Below are positions 14,401 to 26,075 of a DNA stretch of 44,718 nt, in pieces. Each line of letters begins with the position of its first letter. Positions within the stretch are counted from its first letter, which is position 1. The position numbers and the translations under genes are program-made. The stretch is from Bacteroidota bacterium (lineage in GTDB: Bacteria > Bacteroidota > Bacteroidia > Chitinophagales > Chitinophagaceae). The notes below the pieces were generated by a model. That model was not told the origin of the DNA and made no database searches. It was given only the letters and a program-made list of their open reading frames with translations. The stretch lies in contig JAFDYG010000526.1 of assembly GCA_018267545.1 (NCBI GenBank), positions 1 to 44,718 of the forward strand, in the 5' to 3' direction.

Positions 14401-16188
14401 CTTATAATTGTCACTCTGCGTCTGAATCACATGCCCCCGATCGTCATAGTACGAAGTGGTGCTCAGCCAGCTGCCTTTTGTCAGATCCGAGGGATCCTCC
14501 AAAACACGGACTTTCGCGGTAGTCACCATCCCCGTCGTCTGGACCGTCTGCTGCGTAGCCCCATCCGAAACAGACTCTGGATGAAGGTTAGAACCAGCAT
14601 CCAAAGGAGCAGAAAAAGATGTATTAACGGAAGCATACTGCCTGCCCTGTACCCCGGCATAATCATCATAAAAAGTCATGGTCAGCGCGACCAGACTACT
14701 GCCGGAAGGAATCGGATTGTCCAGCACCTGAACCGTATCGCTAAACACAGCCCCGGTAGTCCCCCCCGGGACTATCTCCCCCGTAAAATCCACCACATCC
14801 GGTGAATCGAAGCCATCGTCCAGCGTAATCCCAACCGTCGCCTTCTTATCTCCATTCTGGAGCCCAACAAGACTCAATTCTGACGGAATCGCAGCCGGCG
14901 AATTCCCGGAAACCGGCAGGCTACTGCCTGTACCAGACCCCGTATTACCATCTACAGACGTCTGCAGTTGATCCCGATTGCCTGTATAGACAATCATGCC
15001 CGTGACATTCGGCCGGTTGAGCCCGTCATAAAGGGAGGTCATCCATTGCCCTTTTAAACGCTCATTTGCATCCTGGGTAAAGACAAGCCGGTCACGCTTA
15101 TCGTAGACCATATACGCCCAGCCTGCGCCGGGAACCTTCTTGGCAATCATCCGCTGACGGCCGTCATATTCATACCGAAAACAGAGCTCATTGATAGTAG
15201 TTGTATCAGCCGAAAGATTCCAGTTATTGCCATATACAATATTGGTCGCTTTAGGAGACAGCACAAACCTCAGCTGGTTTAGCTTGTCGTAAACATAATA
15301 AGTGGAAAGCCAGCCAATATAGCCACTAAAATCACTAGCCACAGATGCTCCGACCTGTACCTTCTTTAAAATAACCAGTCCATCCTTGTCCTTGTATTCC
15401 ACCACGGCATGCCCCTGCTCGTCCTTGGTAACGCCCTTATACAGCTGACCAGCACCATAATACCCGCCAGCCACAGGAACATTGGTGGTGATGTCATTCC
15501 CTGAATAAGTAAGCCCATCGGTAGCAATCGTCCAAATCACTACACTATCCACCGCGCTACTCACCAGGTATTGTATCGAAATCCCATTCCCGCTTCCGGC
15601 CCAGCTATTCCCTGCAGCAAATGTAGAATCCGTTCTATTCAAAGGCGACGATTCATAATGCACCTGGCTATAATAAACCTGTTCCCCTGTATAAGCAGGC
15701 TGCTCAGCGGGATATATATTCTGGTAGAAGCCCTTTTGATCGCCAAAAGGATCCATCTTAAGCGCCCCATCGGATGAATTGGCCGTAGACGAAACATAAG
15801 GCAGATATTTATAAACCTCCCGCCCAAAAGCGTCATAAATAACGGGAGAGACAACATCCACAGGCGAGCTCCCCGGCGTCATCTGACGCTGCACCGTCTG
15901 CAGCGGCCGGCCAAGCCCATCAAAATAGCTCGTCGTCTGCTTGACATCTATATAACCGGCTCCATCAAATACCACCGAATCGGTGATCCTGCCCATAGCA
16001 ACCCGCTCCCGAACGTAGTTGATCACAGGAACCTGACCACCCGATCCGTAGCCGGCCGGCGTAGTAGCAACAGTACGACTTGGAGCCGGTACCTGCGTCA
16101 CCGTAGACGGCTTATTCGAAGGCTGGGCATAACCAATCAAAACCGTCGCCTGTAACAATAAAAATCCAAACAAAGACTTATACCGCAT
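11482..16188 (-). CDS. Secreted RHS-repeat protein with C-terminal toxin domain
   Basis: 1568 residues. Signal peptide (residues 1-21, ending GYAQ), a DUF6443-type N-terminal region (about 55-200; RITDSVVFDGAGYIDVKQ, TSYFDGLGRPLQTVQRQM), many YD/RHS repeats through the middle, and an RHS core around 1240-1335 (YYPFGLTMAGI, QFRDLDPQLGRWWQTDPK, NRYNDPNG). After the core a variable region holds the presumed toxin: a segment near 1450-1530 with KKYGPDGNVQKEYNDGHQG, then NEKDPHVHDYKPDPYNPSGR. The GHxG/HVHD histidines recall type-24-like polymorphic toxins, but this is a weak match. The protein ends with ~30 residues of PPQPPQ-type low complexity and GSGSGG, unusual after a toxin domain. RHS proteins form a shell around the toxin and release it into rivals. 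The gene is fourth of five in a compact operon, 12 bases after the stalk gene and 30 before the immunity gene. Confidence 0.9.
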   Translation of the reverse strand: MRYKSLFGFLLLQATVLIGYAQPSNKPSTVTQVPAPSRTVATTPAGYGSGGQVPVINYVRERVAMGRITDSVVFDGAGYIDVKQTTSYFDGLGRPLQTVQRQMTPGSSPVDVVSPVIYDAFGREVYKYLPYVSSTANSSDGALKMDPFGDQKGFYQNIYPAEQPAYTGEQVYYSQVHYESSPLNRTDSTFAAGNSWAGSGNGISIQYLVSSAVDSVVIWTIATDGLTYSGNDITTNVPVAGGYYGAGQLYKGVTKDEQGHAVVEYKDKDGLVILKKVQVGASVASDFSGYIGWLSTYYVYDKLNQLRFVLSPKATNIVYGNNWNLSADTTTINELCFRYEYDGRQRMIAKKVPGAGWAYMVYDKRDRLVFTQDANERLKGQWMTSLYDGLNRPNVTGMIVYTGNRDQLQTSVDGNTGSGTGSSLPVSGNSPAAIPSELSLVGLQNGDKKATVGITLDDGFDSPDVVDFTGEIVPGGTTGAVFSDTVQVLDNPIPSGSSLVALTMTFYDDYAGVQGRQYASVNTSFSAPLDAGSNLHPESVSDGATQQTVQTTGMVTTAKVRVLEDPSDLTKGSWLSTTSYYDDRGHVIQTQSDNYKGGQDTVSSLYNFTGQVIASFQAHSNPQASGITGVHIKTTSSYDNSNRLMEVYKTINDADSTRRLIVRGDYDQMGQLKKKQLGQVGDGSFLETQDYAYNIRGWLKGINQDYANNENRHGANGRWFGMDLSYDWGFVSGQLNGNISGNKWRSRGDGQQRAYGFGYDPVNRLMFSDFNQLTGGNWDKTAGLDFSNIMGNGNDASTAYDENGNIKAMLQSGWRLGGSHPIDSLAYTYCTNSNKLKNVIDGRNDPTTTMGDFRTSSISPYNLGKTASAVDYFYDANGNMTRDLNKDIGSQTADGVIYNHLNLPWQVNVRSASGTKGAIIYIYDAAGNKLKKTTMDSAGNLQTVTIYIAGFQYQGKQSLASGNAPADTLQFFGHEEGRVRVKSDTVGGQQLVSFKYDYFLKDHLGNTRMVLTDEQKSDLYPAATMETASSTTEEIYYTGLENTRTALPSDYPMDTTTNPNVYVARLNGGSAGPKVGPGIVLKVMAGDQFSVRASSWYRSNGASPGTPANPLSDLVTGLISGIGALPGGGHPSPAILQANQVPLSSNFTQFLQDTGSAIVQGKPHAFLNWVLFDNQFNYVAASSGFEQVGADQELKKHILTNLPVTESGYLYIYTSNETPNVDVFFDNLQVTRTRGPLLEENHYYPFGLTMAGISDKALEVQNKENKFRFNKGSELQNKEFSDGTGLEIYGTQFRDLDPQLGRWWQTDPKIDQGYEDVSPYSSMNNAPNRYNDPNGDEGEEASGCCELLRKVAISAGGVINGALNATTMGLWPVAPVGTENYTQDDLDLYYSSVKLGQLATIPMSTIPLNPVPRLVPAGGEPINPTPTTPQPNIPSERSNSNSNDGNSSSGARRKNRIPDKGEPNTTTTNPSGTTTKKYGPDGNVQKEYNDGHQGTNVPTNEKDPHVHDYKPDPYNPSGRGKRMPGRPPKKGELPKDFNRPTPQPPQPPQQPQPPQPPSPPPPGSGSGG

Positions 16189-22350: not shown

Positions 22351-23790
22351 TTAAAAGTTATACCCTATCCTAAACACCAGCGCCTGCGTCCTCGGCGCCT
22401 GCGAATAGCTGAAAAAATCCCATAACAGCTGCATCTTCGTCTTCTTCAACACCCTTCCCCTCATCGACACGGTCTTGCTCACCCCTATCAGCCCACTCTT
22501 TGTCCATCGCTCCAGCTGCTGCAATTGCTGAAACGAAGAAAACGGAGTCGCATAATTATATTCAAACCCACCCGTAGCCGAGAAGCTCCCTTTCAGCTTA
22601 ACCTCCAGAAAAGACCTTAACCCCACCCCCTGACTTGAAAAAGCAATATGATTAAACCCGCTCCCCCAGCCCACCTTATAGCTCGCCCCAACCCCAATGA
22701 CATTCCCCCTCCCCAGCTTATACCCCAGCGACAACCCCAAATCCGTCGTCACCGGAAAATAATAGCTCCCACGCGTCGTCTGGAAATTGGCCCCATACTC
22801 GAGCCGTCTGAAAAAAGTCTTTGTCTTCTGCTCATTCGGCCGGAACGAAGGAATATCCGCATCCCCATTCCCCCCTCCCAGCTGCTCCAGCTTCCCCTTA
22901 TAGCTATCCAGCTGAGCCTTCCCCTCTCCCAGCTGCGACTGCAGCGACTCCATCCCCCCGCTCCCCGCCGAAGTAACCTGCTGCTGCACCTGCTGCGAGA
23001 TCTGATCTCTCGTCTGCAAACCTGCCAGCGCCCGAGCAGCACCACCGCCGCCAGGAACCCCAAACAGCCCCGCCAGCTGCGAATGACTCTTCATAAAAGC
23101 CTGAAACGCCGGCAGCTGATTCAGCTGAGCCAGCGCCTTACGCTCCAATTTATCCGGGTCATTAAAAAGATTCTTGTATTCCTGCAGCTGCTGCGAATAG
23201 TAATAAGCATCCTGCTTCATCCCCGTATACGCCTTCCCCAAAATAGCCTCCGCATTGGCGTGCTGAGCAATGTATTGCCCCACCTGCTGCCGCCGCTCCT
23301 GGATATAATTCTTCACCTCCCCCGCATCCGCCATCTTACCCTGCAGCTGCTGCATCGCCCGCCCATCCTTCTTCAAAAAAGCCAGCATCCCCTGTACAGA
23401 ATCCACATAAGCCTGATAAGGCCCGCTCACCCGCAAACGCACATTCCCCGTATCCGTCTTTATCTTCTGCAGCAATGCCGCACACCTCTCCTCCGACCCG
23501 GCAAATAAACGCTGAGCCCCGGCCGAATCGACCTTCGACAAACGCGCCTTCAACCGCGCCTCCCTTTTCGCCATCCTCTCCAGATACTTCTCCGTCTGCC
23601 GCGTCAGCTGCGCATCCAGCCGCGCGGTCCGCTGCTGAACGTGCTCGAACACCCGCGAAGGAAAACTCAAAACCTTGTTCGCACCATTCGCCGCACCGGC
23701 AACCGAACCCGAGTCGATCGACTGCGCCGAACACACCATACCCGCAAGGCATAGCAATGCCACCAGACATAAAGTCAGTTTCTTGTACAT
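22351..23790 (-). CDS. Outer-membrane barrel protein with periplasmic coiled coil, first gene of the RHS operon
   Basis: 479 residues. Signal peptide (to about residue 22), then ~200 residues of charged helix with coiled-coil character (TARLDAQLTRQTEKYLERMA, KREARLKARLSKVDS), a Gly-rich hinge (GVPGGGGAARALAG), and from ~325 a region of alternating beta strands ending in RIGYNF, with the C-terminal Phe typical of outer-membrane barrels. I do not recognise a named family, though similar proteins beside RHS genes in this phylum are familiar. It probably anchors or exports the YD-repeat proteins encoded behind it. Long Arg/Gln-rich frames on the other strand are shadows. Confidence 0.75.
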   Translation of the reverse strand: MYKKLTLCLVALLCLAGMVCSAQSIDSGSVAGAANGANKVLSFPSRVFEHVQQRTARLDAQLTRQTEKYLERMAKREARLKARLSKVDSAGAQRLFAGSEERCAALLQKIKTDTGNVRLRVSGPYQAYVDSVQGMLAFLKKDGRAMQQLQGKMADAGEVKNYIQERRQQVGQYIAQHANAEAILGKAYTGMKQDAYYYSQQLQEYKNLFNDPDKLERKALAQLNQLPAFQAFMKSHSQLAGLFGVPGGGGAARALAGLQTRDQISQQVQQQVTSAGSGGMESLQSQLGEGKAQLDSYKGKLEQLGGGNGDADIPSFRPNEQKTKTFFRRLEYGANFQTTRGSYYFPVTTDLGLSLGYKLGRGNVIGVGASYKVGWGSGFNHIAFSSQGVGLRSFLEVKLKGSFSATGGFEYNYATPFSSFQQLQQLERWTKSGLIGVSKTVSMRGRVLKKTKMQLLWDFFSYSQAPRTQALVFRIGYNF

Positions 23791-24132: not shown

Positions 24133-24422
24133 CCCGACACACCCCGTACCCCCTAAAGTTCCCTTTGCGGTATGCCTGCACCCCAGGACAACTGGGGTAA
24201 TTCATTGTCTCACAAAGCTAGGCCCCAGCCGTGCCACTAAGCCAAGGAACTACGCCATAAAACGGCGCAGAACATATCCTCATCACCTCCACCTACTTAA
24301 ACAGCATAACCTTTTTCATCCCCACCACCTACAGCATTTATTGCGTTCCTCCTTGGCCGTGGCCCGTCCTGGGACCTGCATGACGCGAGTCAATGAATTT
24401 ACTCACGACTCAAAAAAAGGTT
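24133..24422 (+). ncRNA. Structured leader RNA candidate, copy 1
   Basis: ~290 bases, repeated at 25450-25739 with high identity and ending exactly at the next ATG. Nested helices can be drawn: CCCAGGAC (24182-24189) with GTCCTGGG (24366-24373); GCCAC (24233-24237) with GTGGC (24359-24363); GCCAAGGAAC (24241-24250) with GTTCC and TTGGC (24346-24357, 3-base bulge); a small hairpin CGCC...GGCG near 24253-24267; and a start-proximal stem GAGT...ACTC in 24387-24405. CTGGGG (24192-24197) could instead pair with CCCCAG just upstream or near 24223, suggesting a switch. Differences between copies keep pairing: CGGC to CGGT (wobble), and GAGT/ACTC to GAGA/TCTC (covariation). Not a tRNA, rRNA or any riboswitch I recognise. 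Confidence 0.6.
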
Positions 24423-25382
24423 ATGAAAAGAAAAAGACAGAAAACAGACACCGAAGCAGAAAAGGCCCTCAGGCGCGAGGACGACCGCCTCTGGAAATCG
24501 ATCCTCGAAGAAGTATTCGAAGATTTCCTAAGATTCTTCTTTCCAAGCGCAGATAAGATCTTCGACTTCAGCAAAGGATTCGAATATCTCGACAAGGAGC
24601 TAACGGAAATCTATCCCGACCCTGAGGAAAAGTTAACAGGAAGAGTAGTGGATAAGCTGGTCAAAGCCTATCACTGGAACGGCAAAGAAGATTGGATCCT
24701 GGTCCACGTAGAGGTACAAAGCCAGAAGCAACCGGAGTTTTCAAAACGGATGTATCAATACCACTCCCTTCTCTCGAATCGTTTCGACCGTCCGATCACA
24801 TCGATTGCCGTCTTTACATTCGAAGACGGAAAGAAAACTTCTCCCATCTATGAATCCAGCTTCGCCGGGACATCGGTTGTCTTCAAGTACAATGCGCTGA
24901 ACATTTTCGACTTTACAGACGACGAGCTAAAAGAAAGCTCCAACGTCTTCGCCCTCGTCGCGCTGGTCGCTAAAAAAGCGCTGCTTCAGGGAAAGGTTGC
25001 CGACAGGGAGCTCCTGGATGAAAAGCTGGCGCTCGCAAGGCTTCTCTACGAAAAAGGGTACTTTACTAAAGATAAGCTCCAGAAAATCGGGGCGTTTCTC
25101 AACAACTATGTAAGGTTTGAAAACCGGAAAATGAATCGTATCTTTACAAAGCGATTCGATACTATAACAAATAAAAAGAACAGTATGGGTATCATGGAAA
25201 CACTGGCCGTCATTGCCAAAGAAAAAGGTATCGAAGAAGGCATTGAAAAAGGCCGCGAAACGCGTGAAATAGAAATCGCAAGGAACCTCATCACCAACGG
25301 AAAGTTTTCCGATGAAGATATAGCTTCCGCCACAGACATCCCCCTCAAAGTCATACGAAGAATGCGCAAAGAAGCAAAATAA
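24423..25382 (+). CDS. Rpn-like PD-(D/E)XK nuclease/transposase-family protein
   Basis: 319 residues. The ATG at 24423 was preferred over an in-frame ATG 30 bases earlier because the duplicated leader ends at the same place before the gene at 25740. The family pattern is clear: LEEVFEDFLRFFFPSADKIF, GFEYLDKELTEIYPDPEEK, then the nuclease core VVDKLVKAYHWNGKEDWILV (Asp) and HVEVQSQKQPEFSKRMYQYH (E-V-Q), with RPITSIAVF after it. The end has EKGIEEGIEKGRETREIEIA and a short helical DNA-binding-like tail (ATDIPLKVIRRMRKEAK). Such proteins (YhgA/Rpn type) cut DNA and can promote recA-independent recombination; many are multicopy. A strong terminator follows at 25401. Lying between the two leader copies is unusual. 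Confidence 0.85.
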   Translation: MKRKRQKTDTEAEKALRREDDRLWKSILEEVFEDFLRFFFPSADKIFDFSKGFEYLDKELTEIYPDPEEKLTGRVVDKLVKAYHWNGKEDWILVHVEVQSQKQPEFSKRMYQYHSLLSNRFDRPITSIAVFTFEDGKKTSPIYESSFAGTSVVFKYNALNIFDFTDDELKESSNVFALVALVAKKALLQGKVADRELLDEKLALARLLYEKGYFTKDKLQKIGAFLNNYVRFENRKMNRIFTKRFDTITNKKNSMGIMETLAVIAKEKGIEEGIEKGRETREIEIARNLITNGKFSDEDIASATDIPLKVIRRMRKEAK

Positions 25383-25400
25383 AGCAAAGTCATCCTCTTC

Positions 25401-25433
25401 AAGGGACCGTCCACAAGACGGTCCCTTTTTTTT
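25401..25433 (+). terminator. Rho-independent terminator of the Rpn-like gene
   Basis: AAGGGACCGTC, loop CACAA, GACGGTCCCTT followed by a run of T. It ends transcription before leader copy 2, so copy 2 must have its own promoter. Confidence 0.9.
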
Positions 25434-25449
25434 CTCATTCGTCCTTCCC

Positions 25450-25739
25450 CCCGACACATCCTCGTACCCGTAATTTGTCTCTTTACGGTATGCCTGCACC
25501 CCAGGACAGCTGGGTTAATTCATTGTCTCACAAAGCTAGGCCCCAGTCGTGCCACTAAGCCAAGGAACTACGCCATAAAACGGTGCAGAACACATCCTCA
25601 TCACCTCCACCTACTTAAACGGCACAACCTTTTTCATCCCCACCACCTACCCCATTTATTGCGTTCCTCCTTGGCCGTGGCCCGTCCTGGGACCTGAAAA
25701 GGCGAGACAATAAATTTCTCACGACTCAAAAAGACAGTT
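25450..25739 (+). ncRNA. Structured leader RNA candidate, copy 2
   Basis: Same element as 24133-24422. The same long-range helices are present (CCCAGGAC 25500-25507 with GTCCTGGG 25684-25691; GCCAC/GTGGC; GCCAAGGAAC/GTTCC-TTGGC). Changes relative to copy 1 fall in loops, produce G-U pairs, or exchange T-A for A-T in the stem before the start codon. It precedes a gene unrelated to the one behind copy 1. Confidence 0.6.
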
Positions 25740-26075
25740 ATGAAAAAGGCAATCAAAAGAGACACCAACACGCTCAAAGAAGCACTCCGCGACCTCAACC
25801 GCTACGACCTCAGAGACTATCTGAAGATCCTCGGGCACGAACCGCTCGGAACCTCCGGCCACGCAACCTACTATCGCTCCCCCTTCGACATCCACGGCAA
25901 GGACTACATGATAGTAAACCACTACAACAACGCGTTCCTGGACCTCCACCGAAATGCAAAAGGGAAGCTCACCGACTTCGCCTGCGCGCTCTTCGACGTC
26001 TCGCCCGAGAAGCTCTGCAAAAACATCGCATTCTACAGACTCCACGAGCTGATGTCCGAAGAAAGTCCGGCTTAA
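25740..26075 (+). CDS. Orphan CHC2-like primase zinc-domain protein lacking the zinc ligands
   Basis: 111 residues, no signal peptide or membrane segment. The run LRDYLKILGHEPLGTSGHA, YYRSPFDIHGKDYMIV, NNAFLDLHRNAKGKLTDFAC, LFDVSPEKL follows the layout of the CHC2 domain at the front of DnaG-type and mobile-element primases (YxSPF...PSF..., WYDFG..GG...DF). The zinc-binding Cys/His set is not conserved and no Toprim or helicase part follows, so it cannot be a working primase alone. It could be a relic, or a small DNA- or RNA-binding protein. It is preceded by leader copy 2 and followed at once by a strong terminator, so it is a single-gene unit. Confidence 0.6.
   Translation: MKKAIKRDTNTLKEALRDLNRYDLRDYLKILGHEPLGTSGHATYYRSPFDIHGKDYMIVNHYNNAFLDLHRNAKGKLTDFACALFDVSPEKLCKNIAFYRLHELMSEESPA

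Follow-up and report, generated by a model that had tools for sequence, protein, structure and literature searches.

A conserved hairpin element of Bacteroidota as a candidate single-stranded-DNA promoter of conjugative leading regions

Why should two unrelated genes of a Chitinophagaceae genome be preceded by almost the same 290 bp of DNA? The question is raised by contig JAFDYG010000526.1 of assembly GCA_018267545.1, of which positions 1 to 44,718 are the whole stretch analyzed here (the window). An earlier note, made from the sequence alone, had described two nearly identical copies of about 290 bp, each ending at an ATG and followed by unrelated genes, and this description was confirmed. 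Copy 1 (24133..24422, plus strand) and copy 2 (25450..25739, plus strand) show 91% identity when 24133-24425 is compared with 25450-25742, with an ATG at the end of each (24423 and 25740). Copy 1 lies 5' of an Rpn-like nuclease gene (24423..25382, plus strand; TIGR01784, 44.5 bits, 1.7e-11, below the cut-off of 52.1) and copy 2 lies 5' of a small gene (25740..26075, plus strand) for a 111-aa CHC2-like protein. The nested complementary segments pointed out in the note are present in the window copies, and the exchange of a T-A for an A-T pair in the start-proximal stem is real. The switch that it had proposed, in which a CTGGGG segment pairs with either of two CCCCAG segments, fits copy 1 but was not kept in copy 2, which reads CTGGGT.

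The CHC2-like protein gave no match in a Pfam scan, and was assigned through a profile search, in which it matched (97.7%) the N-terminal portion of CHC2/Toprim-type proteins some 300 aa long. Of seven such ~300-aa relatives scanned, six matched the CHC2 zinc finger PF01807, five of them above the cut-off. No conserved cysteine was found across seven aligned CHC2-like members. One contig-level search returned no homologues of this protein; a separate search of 98 related genomes returned 16 other matches. Ten of these are proteins of about 300 aa; the remaining six, similar in size to the query, belong to five congeneric genomes, and a diverged element lies directly upstream of every one of the six (6/6). 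The start of the Rpn-like gene is uncertain because an in-frame ATG occurs at 24393, inside copy 1, from which the reading frame of this gene is open; copy 2 has ATA at that place. Near the elements, window positions 22351-23790 and positions 14404-15852 of locus L030 encode proteins that look alike by eye, possibly reflecting a shared integration neighbourhood.

The repeat could have been the end of a known insertion element. A DNA-similarity search of the 7.3-Mb, 553-contig genome returned the two window copies as sole matches, and the Rpn-like gene, whose family carries the name "putative transposase", stands behind copy 1 only. With two copies in the genome and such a gene behind one of them only, the repeat bears little resemblance to an insertion-element end.

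The copies share a conserved core, formed by the two strands of an apical stem. Core A (AAGGAACTACGCCATAAA) occupies 24244..24261 in copy 1 and 25562..25579 in copy 2, and core B (TTTATTGCGTTCCTCCTTG) occupies 24337..24355 and 25655..25673, all on the plus strand. The constant part of the relatives reads AAGGAACTACGSCATAAA, followed by a loop of about 24-76 nt and then TTTATTSCGTTCCTCCTTG. A second type of element reads AAAAGACTACGGCATAAA / TTATTCCGTTTCCTTTTG and, by eye, its changes on both sides keep the stem. The apical stem is nearly invariant, with a fixed mismatch and a bulge, and one of its pairs is G-C in 18, C-G in 6 and A-U in 2 of 26 aligned sequences.

The element is not a local oddity, as its apical stem recurs across Bacteroidota. 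Homologues were collected, as the earlier note had proposed, with a covariance model that matched 32 of the 396 genomes of the class, in 22 of 199 genera, and 24 of these 32 genomes lie outside the family of the window. Both core halves are present in 28 of the 29 covariance-model loci besides the window, L101 being the one without, and L042 was discarded as false. Searching with up to one mismatch in the core pattern matched 40 of 394 genomes of the family, noise included; only matches with both core halves were used because a reversed-pattern control of this search also matched. The exact core pattern was found in at least 120 stretches of named genomes. Among the named matches listed, most belong to Flavobacteriaceae, Chryseobacterium, Sphingobacteriaceae, Chitinophagaceae, Cyclobacteriaceae and other Bacteroidota; besides these there is one bin of Chlorobiota, and Proteobacteria, Parvularcula and Dependentiae are represented by one bin each, which may be mis-binned. 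Two element queries gave no match by DNA similarity among the PLSDB plasmids.

The core was absent at six plasmid radC loci, five of which have TAnnTTTG no farther than 330 nt upstream of the gene, in each case on the minus and never on the plus strand. By eye, a hairpin was seen at one of these six, L240, a Bacteroides ovatus plasmid. There the JAB gene, which has an ArdA gene next to it, is preceded by a GC-rich inverted repeat that lacks the core and shows TATTTTTG on the opposite strand; this repeat is possibly a Bacteroides version of the element. In the Pontibacter plasmid pls1 the gene order is JAB-ArdC-MobC-relaxase-TraG, and the core was not found before its JAB gene. At L069, L070, L076 and L078, type I and type II elements are paired about 0.6-0.7 kb apart, before small proteins of no assigned kind, and two of these loci lie in G312, a genome without any match to PF03432.

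Both strands of the element are predicted to fold. As plus-strand RNA, the copies gave z-scores of -4.45 (copy 1) and -4.22 (copy 2) against 200 dinucleotide shuffles, and as minus-strand DNA -3.92 (24190-24425) and -4.15 (25508-25742) against 200 shuffles; each fold beat all of its shuffles. The outer arms are variable in sequence, yet they tend to pair with their own partner: in 16 of 26 elements the cognate arm was better than all 25 foreign arms, and in the other 10 some foreign arm paired equally well or better. Nine of the 35 elements of the family set (two each from L069, L070, L076 and L078, one from L079) were left out of this arm-swap test and of the alignment (A2). In a comparison of G-U with A-C mismatches on the plus strand, G-U was not enriched relative to swapped arms. 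Read as a strand test (G-T against A-C), the comparison first looked favourable for the real arms alone and proved uninformative because the swapped arms gave a similar ratio. The wobble result thus lends no support to a plus-strand RNA, nor does it favour the minus strand.

What distinguishes the strands is a promoter box. When the 5' arm is read on the strand opposite to the gene, both window copies show TTG-N22-TAGCTTTG. In copy 1 the TTG near -33 (24243..24245, minus strand) lies 22 nt upstream of the -7 box TAGCTTTG (24213..24220, minus strand), both read directly from the sequence; the -7 box of copy 2 is at 25531..25538 on the minus strand, mostly within a symmetric internal loop of the predicted fold. 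In Bacteroidota the primary-sigma promoter consists of TAnnTTTG and a TTTG near -33 (PMC7366714), and in Flavobacterium TAnnTTTG is reported to occupy -12 to -5, while TAnnTTGY is described there as a promoter motif ascribed to another sigma factor (PMC9723704).

The box is enriched on the same strand and arm in the relatives, counted after removal of near-identical copies (80% rule). The strict TAnnTTTG was found on the minus strand of the 5' arm in 16 of 31 non-redundant elements recognized by the core only. In 300 shuffles the count averaged 1.2 and never exceeded 5, and each of the three control combinations (5' arm plus strand, 3' arm both strands) gave none of the 31. When G was allowed as the first base, the box was present in 23 of these 31. 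Over all 118 elements the strict box occurs in 58 (controls 2, 1 and 2); with the near variants TAnnTTnG and TAnnTTGY, forms picked after the sequences had been inspected, the count rises to 94 (controls 6, 3 and 7). Of the 60 elements without the strict box, 24 have neither TAnnTTnG nor TAnnTTGY; in some of these the first T is replaced by G. Most type I elements with a strict -7 box (15/21) have a spacer of 21-22 nt between TTG and box. Among 43 elements with a strict box and the core TTG, the spacer falls outside 19-25 nt in 16, in which the role of the core as a -33 element is therefore uncertain.

The box is also placed in a weakly paired stretch of the hairpin. The mean pairing probability of its six inner bases was 0.40, as against 0.71 upstream and 0.68 downstream (n=95; the averages leave out 23 of the 118 elements, in which none of the box forms was present or the sequence was too short). 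Pairing was lower in the box than upstream in 81 of 95, lower than downstream in 78 of 95, and lower than in 6-mers of similar A+T content from the same arm (mean 0.62) in 78 of 95. On linear DNA this promoter is directed away from the gene, but folding of the template strand on itself would turn it toward the gene. With the published spacing and the predicted pairing, the mRNA made from the folded minus strand of copy 1 would start at 24390 (plus strand), 33 nt before the ATG at 24423, and for copy 2 we placed the predicted +1 by hand at 25707 (plus strand), by analogy with copy 1 and likewise 33 nt before its ATG. An automatic estimate of +1 for 42 relatives gave no position in 12, one in the wrong arm in 6 and a usable one in 24. 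In these 24 the first ATG follows at 14-48 nt in 22, at 75 nt in one and at 3 nt in copy 1, the last because of the ATG at 24393, three bases past the predicted +1.

These observations bear on the main rival explanation, a structured 5' leader RNA common to mobile-element genes and acting in cis on translation or termination. Such a leader is suggested by the stable plus-strand fold, by the compensatory core pair and by the position of the element close before the start codon. At several RadC loci (among L073, L071, L029 and L063), TTCCATAAT, located 3' of the hairpin, looks by eye like the complement of a start-codon sequence, ATTATGGAA; the leader of the predicted mRNA could fold over the gene start there, or the repeat could be an operator. 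A promoter that works on folded single-stranded DNA (ssDNA) should show a box on the opposite strand and within a bubble, whereas an mRNA leader offers no evident reason for either; nor do the wobble pairs or Rfam, which gave no credible match to the element, speak for an RNA. The earlier note had proposed an undescribed cis-regulatory or trans-acting RNA for which it knew of no Rfam family. The lack of a known family was borne out, and a structured, cis-placed element with a compensatory change, of which we found no description, remains from that proposal; that RNA is the acting molecule has become less likely, and we regard the leader explanation as improbable.

The genes behind the elements were tabulated, as that note had also suggested. 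An ORF of at least 60 aa lies within reach of 66 of the 76 non-redundant named elements; 15 of these ORFs are RadC-like and 15 encode SSB (BLAST, one query each), and the other 36 are mixed, with some doubtful gene calls among them. Ten downstream proteins picked for a Pfam search corresponded to RadC, ParB_N (two), the ArdC N-domain (two), a C5 methylase, DUF932 (two), a ResIII/DEAD helicase and one protein without a match. RadC follows 14 of the 35 elements of the family set (assigned by likeness to L074, which matches PF04002). RadC, SSB, ArdC, ParB-like, DUF932 and DNA-methylase genes are gene types of conjugative leading regions. The leading region of plasmid F itself contains genes for SSB, ParB, DUF932, DNA methylase and antirestriction, which all share the strand of traM. 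Among 102 elements with flanking sequence, 14 have their nearest downstream ORF of at least 100 aa on the minus strand, and 7 have no such ORF.

If leading-region genes are transcribed from the transferred strand, they should be directed toward oriT. Wherever a locus has several elements, all copies are on one strand (23/23). Our relaxase searches covered the PF03432 family. Among the 26 validated family loci, a relaxase lies within 45 kb in 18, always on the strand of the element (18/18) and downstream of it in 16; at the remaining eight, the window included, no such relaxase was found within that distance on the contig. As the contig of the window has no PF03432 relaxase, the window unit may be a remnant or may have moved off its transfer genes. 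In the named set (35 loci from 22 genomes) a relaxase was found within 60 kb at 15 loci, eight within about 30 kb and seven at 30-60 kb, and none within 60 kb on the contig at 20. It is on the same strand in 14 of the 15 and on the other strand in one, and the 14 are divided into 8 downstream and 6 upstream of the element. Relaxase strand thus agrees well with element strand, relaxase position only partly.

Orientation and placement also weigh on a second rival explanation, a single-strand priming site or complementary-strand origin at which a polymerase would make the primer for second-strand synthesis, gene expression being secondary. It would have the same anatomy; however, it does not fit well with loci that hold several copies, every copy in front of a separate gene and all of them in the same orientation, and it has no need for placement at start codons. 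We consider it very unlikely. Least probable of all is a double-stranded regulatory repeat (an operator, an invertible promoter or the end of a transposable element), which would account for an extended inverted repeat, one arm of which carries a promoter box, and for two near-identical copies, but not for outer arms that differ between elements and still tend to pair with their own partner, for the copy number of two, for sister copies always on one strand, or for the lack of bias toward divergent upstream genes. The upstream neighbours of the 102 elements are on the plus strand in 49, on the minus strand in 41 and absent in 12; since they show no divergence bias, the element is not in general a promoter of divergent genes.

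The element is, in our judgement, probably an ssDNA promoter of the leading region of conjugative elements. Most likely it represents a new family of ssDNA promoters of the sigma-ABfr type that would work like Frpo of plasmid F, a likeness argued from anatomy and context. This reading is favoured by the fold, the conserved core, the -7 box restricted to one strand and arm, its bubble, the gene set and the co-orientation, all of them computed features. Against it we counted the 60 of 118 elements without a strict box, the irregular spacers and the 10 of 26 arms for which some foreign arm is an equal or better partner; the loci without a relaxase (8/26 and 20/35), the six upstream relaxases, the seven at 30-60 kb and the one on the other strand; and the downstream ORFs on the minus strand (14) or absent (7) among 102. 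A further point against it is a control scan with the promoter consensus: the Frpo2 hairpin of F folds, and the scan did not pick out its -10/-35.

In the proposed mechanism, the strand antisense to the gene would enter the recipient and its element would fold into a long hairpin. The complement of the plus-strand 5' arm would then serve as the non-template strand, carrying, from loop to base, the TTG near -33 and TAnnTTTG at -7, and the complement of the 3' arm would be the template, leading straight into the gene. Since the -7 box would lie in a ready-made bubble, host RNA polymerase with the primary sigma factor of Bacteroidota could start there, leaving the hairpin at its base and entering the gene after a short leader. 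Once the second strand was made, the hairpin would be lost and the promoter would face away from the gene, so that expression would be a pulse on entry. If this reading holds, the window element drives, or once drove, the Rpn-like and CHC2-like genes.

Known ssDNA promoters come from plasmids such as F and ColIb-P9. The element shares with these Frpo/ssi sequences a hairpin before leading-region genes, promoter boxes formed when one strand pairs with itself, and near-identical copies in one region. In F, Frpo1 and Frpo2 are given as 92% identical copies within one leading region (PMC9849209). As expected of an Frpo/ssi-like sequence, a long stem-loop lies just upstream of the gene, and the stem carries boxes for the host sigma factor that face the gene once the template strand is folded, the -33 part being less regular. 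The two differ in phylum and sigma factor, with TTG/TAnnTTTG here and TTGACA/TATAAT there, and the strongly conserved apical core of the Bacteroidota element was not found in F. A comparison of the 118 elements with the F leading region revealed no similarity to Frpo: the best eight matches were short (15-43 nt) and scattered, with a best E of 8e-4, and one of these eight, of 25 nt, lies upstream of ssb.

Two other systems were compared. EGeRS, in plasmids of the pLS20 family, is likewise a regulatory sequence common to several establishment genes and placed before them, but its authors argue that EGeRS1 is unlikely to be an ssDNA promoter, being longer and showing no promoter in its predicted fold (PMC8708921). 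RF01754, the radC RNA motif of Proteobacteria, is described as associated with radC (PMC2864571). Its model matched none of ten genomes carrying the element and none of ten element loci at the gathering score, and gave no match in five proteobacterial radC plasmid regions. We take the fuller gene list of RF01754 to be similar to the gene association of the element, and by analogy this and other mobile-element "RNA motifs" may be misread ssDNA promoters. A large survey of leading regions looked for known Frpo sequences and for TTGACA/TATAAT, and its main text does not contain the word Bacteroid (PMC11541004). No description of ssDNA promoters in Bacteroidota was found among the open-access papers searched.

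A wider proposal, toward which we lean with less assurance, is that a phylum-wide family of ssDNA promoters adapted to the Bacteroidota sigma factor would drive an entry programme (RadC, SSB, ArdC, ParB-like, DUF932 and methylase) in many conjugative elements, the apical stem being a docking site for RNA polymerase or another factor. If true, this entry strategy, written in a different promoter language, would extend to a large group of bacteria from soil, water and the sea. The element would then mark leading regions in integrative conjugative elements and plasmids of Bacteroidota, the CHC2-like and Rpn-like proteins would become candidates for early establishment or counter-defence genes, and gene expression that precedes second-strand synthesis would become directly accessible.
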